From the IMG/VR virus record IMGVR_UViG_3300042691_012631, positions 1-34,353 of that record: 34,353 nt of DNA. One strand, written 5' to 3'. This document shows positions 28,532 through 31,606 of this stretch, piece by piece. The notes beneath the pieces are model-generated. The model did not search any database and was not told the DNA's origin. It was given only the letters and a program-made list of their open reading frames with translations. The DNA is from a virus. Position 1 is the first letter of the stretch. Every line of letters starts with the position of its first letter. Both the position numbers and the translations under genes were made by a program.

Positions 28532-28729
28532 ATGGAAGCGGTGCAACAAACCCAATTTGATAAGGCTTTGGCAGTATTTGGCTCAATTAAGGGCATGGCA
28601 GAAAAAGTAGGGGTAAAGTATGTCAGTTGCTATGCATGGTATATGCGGGGCGGAAAGATCCCTAAAAAGCACCATAATGCGGTCTTACAGGCTTCAGAAG
28701 GCAAATTGACAGCCCAAGACCTTGAGTAG
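28532..28729 (+). CDS. YdaS/Cro-like HTH regulator
   Basis: 65 residues. FDKALAVFGSIKGMAEKVGV (residues 8-27), then YVSCYAWYMRGGKIPKKHH fits the YdaS/Cro helix-turn-helix pattern (alpha2-turn-alpha3 followed by I-P). It is divergent from the leftward operon, with a strong AAAGGAGAGAG site. It probably controls both early promoters through the TCTACA words. No CI-type partner is seen nearby. Confidence 0.8.
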   Translation: MEAVQQTQFDKALAVFGSIKGMAEKVGVKYVSCYAWYMRGGKIPKKHHNAVLQASEGKLTAQDLE

Positions 28730-29033
28730 CCTAAATCAGCGCACAATAGCCCTTTTAGAAGGTCAGGGCTATTTGTGTGATGTAGTTGAATCCTACAATG
28801 CCTTTACAAAGCGCAAGAAGGACTTATTCGGCATTTTTGATATTTTGGCAGTAGGCAATGGGGAAACTGTTGCTGTTCAGATTACCAGCAAAGCCAATAT
28901 GTCAGCTAGGATCAAGAAAATTCAAGAAAGTGAGTTTCTGCCTGAAATCATTAGGTCAGGATGGCGCATCAAGGTTATTGGGTGGTTTAAGCAAAAGAAT
29001 GGGCGGTATGATTGCAAAGAGTTTGAGTTTTGA
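28722..29033 (+). CDS. PD-(D/E)XK-fold protein, possibly degenerate
   Basis: 103 residues. RKKDLFGIFDILAVGNGETVAVQITS has the strand order of PD-(D/E)XK nucleases (D40; Q53-x-T55 in place of E-x-K). Similar small proteins are common in phages but I know of no proven function. The start is TTG 28722, overlapping the regulator stop; no ATG exists near it. The 3' end contains the promoter of the downstream RNA. Confidence 0.65.
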   Translation: MSSLNQRTIALLEGQGYLCDVVESYNAFTKRKKDLFGIFDILAVGNGETVAVQITSKANMSARIKKIQESEFLPEIIRSGWRIKVIGWFKQKNGRYDCKEFEF

Positions 29034-29041
29034 GATATACT
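29012..29041 (+). promoter_or_regulatory. Predicted promoter for the structured RNA
   Basis: TTGCAA (29012-29017), an 18-base spacer, and TATACT (29036-29041). Transcription would begin near 29048, just where the paired region starts. It overlaps the end of the preceding coding region. Confidence 0.5.
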
Positions 29042-29048
29042 TTTAATT

Positions 29049-29174
29049 GCAGAGTGGAATCTGTTTAGAAACCTAGCAAAAGCCTTTTAGGGCTATCTTT
29101 GAGTGTTTAATTAAAGTTGCTAGGGTCTTTATTTAAACAATTCCATCTTAGAGATAGCTTTAAAGGGCTTTTTC
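29049..29174 (+). ncRNA. Predicted bistable structured RNA, about 125 nt
   Basis: Two long helices compete. Helix A: 29055-29079 with 29117-29145 (20 Watson-Crick pairs: TGGAAT/ATTCCA, TGTTTA/TAAACA, CCTAGCAA/TTGCTAGG). Helix B: 29078-29103 with 29147-29172 (26 unbroken pairs, five of them G-U). The strands alternate A5-B5-A3-B3 with almost no linker, so both cannot form fully. The G-U pairs would be A-C mismatches on the other strand, so the RNA is read rightward. Helix B ends in GGGC then TTTTT, like an intrinsic terminator; A would prevent it. I match it to no known RNA family. Confidence 0.65.
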
Positions 29175-29187
29175 TATTTCTGCGGAA

Positions 29188-29243
29188 GGGAAAGAGAAAA
29201 CACCAGTTTTCTTGATCTAGAGAATTGATGTTTTCTTTTTCTT
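29188..29243 (+). repeat. Long hairpin, 24 pairs
   Basis: 29188-29202 pairs with 29229-29243, and 29204-29212 pairs with 29219-29227, with one C-A mismatch (29203/29228) and a six-base loop TGATCT. Several G-U pairs again favour the + strand. The pyrimidine-rich 3' arm (TTTTCTTTTTCTTCTT) makes it terminator-like. Confidence 0.6.
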
Positions 29244-29258
29244 CTTCTTTTGGTCTTT

Positions 29259-29306
29259 CCTGAATTGACAGGGCATCTTTCCACTTCTGTGGGGGGGTAG
29301 GGGGGG
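29259..29306 (+). other. Small hairpins and G-quadruplex motif
   Basis: CCTG/CAGG (29259-29262 with 29269-29272) and CCAC/GTGG (29281-29284 with 29289-29292) are small hairpins. GGGGGGGTAGGGGGGG (29291-29306) contains four GGG tracts with loops of 1, 2 and 1 bases, a canonical G4 pattern, striking in AT-rich DNA. Together with the two preceding entries these account for the gene-free stretch 29034-29370. Confidence 0.65.
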
Positions 29307-29349
29307 TTTGTAGTTTTGGTTCTTATTTTTGTTTTAGTGCCAACTATAA

Positions 29350-31030: not shown

Positions 31031-31215
31031 AAGAAGAAGCATTTAAGCTGGCAGATAAATTAGAAAATGAGTGTGAGCCATATGTTCAGCTAGATCAGCT
31101 TACATTTCAAAAAGCAGCAAAGATGTTAAGAGAGCAAGCAAATCTTATTCAAACCCTTAAATCACAATTAATTTATGACAGACTTGTTTCAAGACTTGAT
31201 GGAAAAAACCACTAA
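31027..31215 (+). CDS. Small coiled-coil protein, paralog B
   Basis: 62 residues: EAFKLADKLENECEPYVQLD then QKAAKMLREQANLIQTLKSQL. Paralog of the gene at 30810. It overlaps the replication-like gene by 41 bases. Confidence 0.65.
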   Translation: MKEEAFKLADKLENECEPYVQLDQLTFQKAAKMLREQANLIQTLKSQLIYDRLVSRLDGKNH

Positions 31216-31606
31216 TGAAAAACACTATAGCGGAGATTTTGAAGTTTTTTGGCTGGCTTATCCAAGAAAACAGGGCAAGCAGATGGCTAGAAAGGCTTGG
31301 CTTAAACTTAATTCCGCCCAAAGAAAGAAGGCGCAAGAGGAGATTTTGAATCATATAAAATATTGGGAGTTGCATGAAACAGCCCAATGCTTTATCCCGC
31401 ATTGTTCTACTTGGCTAAATCAGGCTAGGTATGAGGATATTTTAGACTTTACTCCACCTAAGAAAAAAGAATCTAAAGAATGGATGCTAAGTAATGAAGG
31501 TATTGAGCAGAAGGCTAAAGAGCTTGGCATCTTGGGAAATGGTTATGATACTTATCAAACCCTTAAAATCAAATGCATGAAGGCTTTAGGCATGAGTGTG
31601 CAGTAA
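31175..31606 (+). CDS. Replication-initiation-like protein (lambda O/DnaT-type C-terminal domain)
   Basis: 143 residues. FEVFWLAYPRKQGKQMARKAW (about 22-42) and CFIPHCSTWLNQARYED (about 72-88) match a domain found at the C-terminus of many phage replication-initiation and helicase-loading proteins. The N-terminal DNA-binding half of lambda O is missing, so it may recruit a host helicase only. It is the sole replication protein candidate in the window. Confidence 0.65.
   Translation: MTDLFQDLMEKTTNEKHYSGDFEVFWLAYPRKQGKQMARKAWLKLNSAQRKKAQEEILNHIKYWELHETAQCFIPHCSTWLNQARYEDILDFTPPKKKESKEWMLSNEGIEQKAKELGILGNGYDTYQTLKIKCMKALGMSVQ

Follow-up and report, generated by a model that had tools for sequence, protein, structure and literature searches.

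The stretch of DNA analysed here (the window) is a single viral contig of 34,353 bases, IMGVR_UViG_3300042691_012631, from a tailed freshwater phage with a lambda-like gene order. Its rightward genes include, in this order, one for a Cro/YdaS-like regulator and one for a conserved 103-aa protein, followed by the structured element which is the subject of this work, then by a second leader hairpin and, beyond some small genes, by a replication-initiation-like gene. The features are:

28532-28729, rightward: Cro/YdaS-like regulator
28722-29033, rightward: conserved 103-aa protein
29012-29041, + strand: promoter, TTGCAA (-35), 18 nt, TATACT (-10)
29049-29183, + strand: whole element, about 135 bases, closed by GCAGA/TCTGC
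29049-29053, + strand: P1 5' strand, GCAGA, and probable transcript 5' end judged from the -10 spacing; partner 29179-29183, or 29060-29064 as hairpin H0
29054-29060, + strand: A1 5' arm, GTGGAAT, the loop of H0; partner 29140-29146, 7 bp
29062-29069, + strand: middle part of helix A in the window copy; partner 29132-29139, 8 bp
29072-29079, + strand: A2 5' arm, CCTAGCAA; partner 29117-29124, 8 bp
29078-29103, + strand: helix B 5' strand
29104-29116, + strand: helix C 5' strand; partner 29127-29139, with one mismatch in the window copy
29117-29124, + strand: A2 3' arm, TTGCTAGG, within the helix C loop
29127-29139, + strand: helix C 3' strand, of which 29132-29139 doubles as partner of the middle part of helix A
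29140-29146, + strand: A1 3' arm, ATTCCAT; in fold B a 7-nt bulge between C and B
29147-29172, + strand: helix B 3' strand
29169-29173, + strand: U5 tract after GGGC, terminator-like
29179-29183, + strand: P1 3' strand, TCTGC, the end of the element
29184-29245, + strand: second leader module, a strong GAAAAC/GTTTTC hairpin region
31175-31606, + strand: replication-initiation-like gene (phrog_270)

A preliminary description of the sequence had reported two mutually exclusive helices arranged as A5-B5-A3-B3, and both are present at those positions and in that order. Helix B is as it was given, an unbroken run of 26 pairs (29078-29103/29147-29172) including five G-U and ending in GGGC followed by TTTTT (29169-29173), and the promoter lies where it had been placed. 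Helix A, described as a helix of 20 pairs, is found as three stretches of 7, 8 and 8 bp. Other points require revision. Linkers of 0-1 nt separate A5 from B5 and A3 from B3 only, since between B5 and A3 there are 13 nt, which form the 5' strand of helix C. This helix, nested in B and excluded by A, had been overlooked, as had the closing stem P1, with which the element ends at 29183 and not at 29174.

The window element folds at -48.8 kcal/mol compared to -27.4 for shuffled sequences (z -6.6; 0 of 200 as good) and the A half on its own gives a z of -3.5. A single crossing pair of stems of such strength is common in shuffled sequences (220 of 500), so that the test is not significant on a single sequence and proof of the exclusive helices comes from the family rather than from the window sequence.

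An RNA family with two conserved folds

The starting set consisted of loci encoding relatives of the neighbouring protein, at which homologues of the element were found at the same place. A second search used a pattern from the element 3' end, to which at least 119 viral-contig stretches conformed. Because portions of B3 and of the 3' strand of P1 are written into this pattern, their conservation is partly by design; A1, A2, C and B5 lie outside it. At least 98 distinct members were parsed, all located on viral contigs with the exception of one short MAG contig. The same pattern found only two matches in 84,980 cellular genomes. One is a genuine member of the family, from a Bacteroidota MAG contig of 3.5 kb, and is probably stray phage DNA; the other, in Anaerococcus (L278), failed to parse as a member and is likely to be due to chance.

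The element belongs to an RNA family absent from Rfam, in agreement with the preliminary description, which had called it undescribed. The covariance models of Rfam 15 (4227 families, among them phage antisense RNAs and Betaproteobacteria-1) gave no match in the window at the gathering threshold. At E values up to 5 this search returned only weak hairpin look-alikes, chiefly plant and animal miRNA precursors, and it matched no aptamer family of the known riboswitch classes to the element. BLAST of the element region and of one relative against 50,697 phage records gave no match. The nearest matches of the neighbouring protein share 34-54% identity and occur in Xanthomonas, Stenotrophomonas, Methylophilales and environmental phages. 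Neither Pfam nor PHROG matches this 103-aa protein, whose motifs suggest a resemblance to PD-(D/E)XK nucleases. In Venkman, PBR31 and ctXG6705, its homologues are found close to Q-type antiterminator genes.

Covariation was computed on 58 aligned members. For B, C and P1 together, 96.9% of cells are paired and covariation is 0.282 (0.118 shuffled; at most 0.068 when slid), while for A1 and A2 it reaches 0.615 (0.228 shuffled; at most 0.249 when slid). H0 and A1 are 99.8% paired, with a covariation of 0.621 compared to 0.194 in shuffles. Taken individually, P1 and the H0 core are always paired (100%), A1 is paired in 404 of 405 cells with 6 of its 7 pairs changed on both sides, helix C is 97% paired (8/13 pairs changed on both sides) and helix B 96% paired (7/24). 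A2 is under-counted in the alignment, its 5' arm not always being aligned, and includes 5-10 bp in most members when parsed one by one. The U5 tract occurs in every member, including those reached via the neighbouring gene rather than the sequence pattern. The middle part of helix A (29062-29069) shows no covariation in the family and was rejected as a conserved helix, and local hairpins in B5 and B3 are compatible with the sequences with little evidence of their own.

The bistability put forward in the preliminary description, which depended on pairing being kept in homologues, is thus upheld: both helices are conserved with compensatory changes. The element also has one of the features expected of a transcription attenuator, a conserved pair of exclusive helices with a U-tract at the end of the later one. 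The family provides a natural case in which evolution has kept two mutually exclusive folds simultaneously, and adds to what Rfam holds a structured RNA with strong covariation support which is common in freshwater phage contigs.

A fixed tertiary structure was considered as an alternative. Here the H0 loop (A1) would dock in the B/C bulge and A2 and C would form a kissing interaction with a partial B, generating a target for a protein or for polymerase, such as a put-like antitermination RNA or a host-factor binder. In favour of such a pseudoknot, all helices covary within the same sequences and the A1 arm lengths fit both loop and bulge, but A2 is incompatible with full-length B, because the 5' arm of A2 lies against the base of this helix, which is 24-26 bp long and carries C and the A2 3' arm at its top. 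A fixed protein-binding structure would moreover leave the hypervariable arms unexplained, and we regard this alternative as improbable. Nothing was found in support of an HK022 put-like antitermination RNA, which the preliminary description had mentioned as a possibility; what is conserved instead is two exclusive folds, a U-tract and hypervariable pairing arms.

In helices B and C, G-U pairs outnumber A-C by 393 to 28, indicating that the conserved RNA is the + strand. This asymmetry, together with a promoter at a fixed distance and the U-tract, makes it very improbable that the element functions at the DNA level, as a recombination, packaging or replication site whose inverted repeats act as single-stranded DNA, even if a unit of about 130 bp moving between unrelated flanks and the proximity of a replication gene would suit such a site.

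Transcript start, second leader module and downstream genes

In 98 of 98 members, whatever the upstream gene, GCAGA is preceded at a distance of 6-9 nt by a -10 hexamer matching in at least four of its six positions (5-6/6 matches in 95); the -35 is weak in most members. Given this position, the RNA very probably begins at GCAGA, which supports the earlier suggestion of a transcription-switch layout opening a rightward transcript. Eighteen records contain both the element and a replication-initiation-like gene, and in each of them the gene is found 0.4-2.5 kb downstream with the same orientation; for elements close to the end of a contig, circular wrap is assumed.

Directly after TCTGC, with a spacing of 0-3 nt in nearly all members, there is a second leader module which can be of several kinds, and in phages without the element this module sits directly at the promoter. 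Both positions suggest read-through into a common transcript. The window type recurs in L075, L203, L242 and L270, either after the element or straight after the promoter, and Betaproteobacteria-1 RNA (RF02932) directly follows the element in L002, L068 and L093. The other kinds tested gave no match in Rfam.

Several observations concern these modules themselves. In the window (29184-29245), GAAAAC is able to pair with either of two GTTTTC copies, and in L075 a promoter-like site immediately precedes the GAAAAC/GTTTTC module. On the 3' side of the second module, at 29286-29310, there are two runs of seven G (TGTGGGGGGGTAGGGGGGGTTTG), which are also present in L075. In L022, L177, L214, L004 and others, the site taken elsewhere by Betaproteobacteria-1 RNA is occupied by other recurrent leader modules, at least three in number (CGCACTCCAGGCGAAA..., CACCCGAAACGACAGGGTG... 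and CTAGCCCGTACTCATTGG...); they have no Rfam match and are possible new RNA families.

The element might also be a stand-alone small RNA, in which fold B would provide the terminator and a stable body and A1 and A2 would act only between molecules, by kissing, dimerisation or contact with a sister phage RNA, with no control of read-through. It has its own promoter, P1 closes both its ends and the U-tract lies at its end. The 7-nt A1 hairpin loop is complementary to the 7-nt bulge, a kissing-loop geometry, and the arms are hypervariable. The second structured module nevertheless argues against this reading, both by its close spacing and by its position at the promoter where the element is missing, and we think it unlikely.

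Compensated change of the A arms

Between close pairs of members, which are not independent of one another, 69 of 130 differences fall in the 15 nt of A1, 9 in the 46 nt of B, 1 in the 26 nt of C and none in P1. On a tree built without the A arms, the changes per site are 10.7-11.1 for A1, 8.4 for the unpaired linker, 3.4-3.6 for C and 1.5-2.8 for B. The rate of change in A1 is about four times that in helix B, yet A1 pairs in 404/405 cells; compared to the unpaired linker, the A arms change only modestly more (about 1.3-2 fold). A1 has 18 states, with at least 33 changes on the tree. Among 20 parsed members reached via the gene neighbour or homology, A1 again differs most (0.49 per site compared to 0.25-0.28 in B).

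Near-identical copies are often distinguished by compensated A1 swaps alone. L245 and L010 differ solely by three compensated A1 pairs and their flanks are 95-98% identical. L170 and L214 differ by one compensated pair and have 1.5-kb flanks without similarity, indicating that the element moves as a cassette. Two records are assembly chimeras which expose sympatric alleles. One of them, G019 (44,384 bases), overruns its own start and so carries the allele of a second strain, with an identical Cro-like protein, a nearly identical downstream RNA and different A1 and A2, and the other, G022 (35,746 bases), overruns one genome length in a similar way, with a different element subtype at the same place. 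Elements from the same sample all have different arms, in a set too small for this to carry weight. L270 is an apparent recombinant, with a 5' half like that of L188 and a 3' half like that of L170; its A1 is intact and its A2 has only 5 bp. Looking for possible trans targets, we searched the rest of the phage for further copies of the arms and found no 11-mer match of note.

A second RNA type of unrelated sequence with the same P1/A/B/C layout was found in L017, L020, L032, L289 and L290, at the same site after the same gene. In L289 and L290 the matching A2 arms and their immediate flank differ (GGAAAGCAG/CTGCTTTCC and GAATAAGAG/CTCTTATTC), with one or two single-base differences outside them. 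The family covariance model detects no homology in this second type (one sub-threshold match elsewhere), so the link between the two types is one of layout.

Both arms change together with hardly any broken intermediates (404/405 cells paired), and in the second RNA type arms are replaced en bloc. Such changes could also have a mutational origin, with template switching rewriting the inverted arms of a switch acting purely in cis. We judge this quite unlikely, since B and C, which are longer inverted repeats of the same molecule, change far less. To judge from the sequences, fast and strictly compensated change in what would be antiterminator arms says that arm identity matters.

A putative leader switch and comparison with known systems

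Folding was followed along the growing chain as equilibrium at each length, not as kinetics. The full-length RNA favours B (median -52.7 compared to -43.4 kcal/mol for forced A in 85 members), which is the optimum in nearly all members. As the chain grows, A2 and then A1 dominate at about nt 80-115 in the copies examined, and B later. With the A arms free, B exceeds 50% at a median distance of 7 nt ahead of the U-tract, and with the arms masked at 14 nt (4 and 16 nt for the window copy). In this model the element appears poised at the point where the terminator must form, with the A arms setting the timing.

A choice between terminator and antiterminator ahead of the replication genes is the simplest account, and we lean towards a two-state leader switch on the replication operon, in which B is the terminator, A the antiterminator and A also the specificity determinant. 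The element would be the 5' end of an early phage transcript. During passage of RNA polymerase, the A1 and A2 arms would pair first (fold A); once the last 25 nt emerge, helix B with its nested C could displace A. Helix B and U5 would constitute an intrinsic terminator. In fold B the RNA would thus end after about 125-135 nt, whereas in fold A transcription would proceed into the second leader module and on to the replication operon.

A1 and A2 would be the addressable part of the switch, any agent masking them early leading to fold B. Termination and read-through are steps which we infer, as is an agent acting in trans, a part of this best explanation to which we give somewhat less than an even chance. 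The likeliest such agent would be another copy of the same RNA, for example released short RNA of the phage itself or of a sister phage, since the arms diversify fast yet remain complementary. Masking by copies would result in autoregulation or in competition between phages. As a more tentative proposal, the element may be a mobile RNA cassette for such competition: the short RNA in fold B would expose its A arms, capture those of a nascent sister RNA, force it into fold B and so propagate the "off" state, shutting down replication of a co-infecting phage with the same arms, and a compensated swap would found a new compatibility group. Tyrosine integrase (PF00589) was absent from all 14 records searched, which makes classical prophage or lysogenic immunity unlikely; it was not retained, and autoregulation or competition of co-infecting phages fits the element better. 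The paired arms, which change the fastest and yet hold their pairing, resemble RNA "keys"; if they are read in trans, they would provide apparently non-integrating phages with an RNA-only exclusion or copy-control system.

In plasmid attenuators of the pT181/pIP501 type, an antisense RNA from the opposite strand regulates the choice between terminator and antiterminator upstream of the replication initiator gene. The proposed switch resembles these in the position of this choice and in the diverging complementary segments which set specificity, but both complementary arms of the element are on the same strand, and a 2-kb scan found no reverse promoter. HK022 put, which acts on RNA polymerase with a fixed structure, is likewise a structured RNA close to the start of an early phage transcript; in contrast, the element has two exclusive folds and variable arms. 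Betaproteobacteria-1 RNA (RF02932) shares phages and site with the element but differs in sequence and structure and is a separate downstream module.

IsrK of prophage Gifsy-1 is a short RNA which turns on translation of its long form (PMC4825925). The likeness would lie in termination of a short RNA near its promoter, a read-through form and action of the short form on the long one in trans; a family of exclusive helices with arms that swap is not described there (PMC4825925). In P4, a separate processed RNA, CI RNA, pairs with seqA and seqC flanking it, which leads to premature termination ahead of the replication genes (PMC4825925). P4 and the element share an untranslated leader before phage replication genes (18/18 records holding the replication-initiation-like gene) and two short complementary segments, and would share premature termination and base-pairing specificity, both of which are putative in the element (PMC4825925). 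P4 is the CI-type case of a temperate element with an integrase, unlike the element-bearing phages, in which no tyrosine integrase was detected (14/14 records), and any trans action of the element is putative. The element also differs from P4 in that it interleaves both partners and the terminator in a single unit of about 135 nt (A5-B5-C5-A3-B3).
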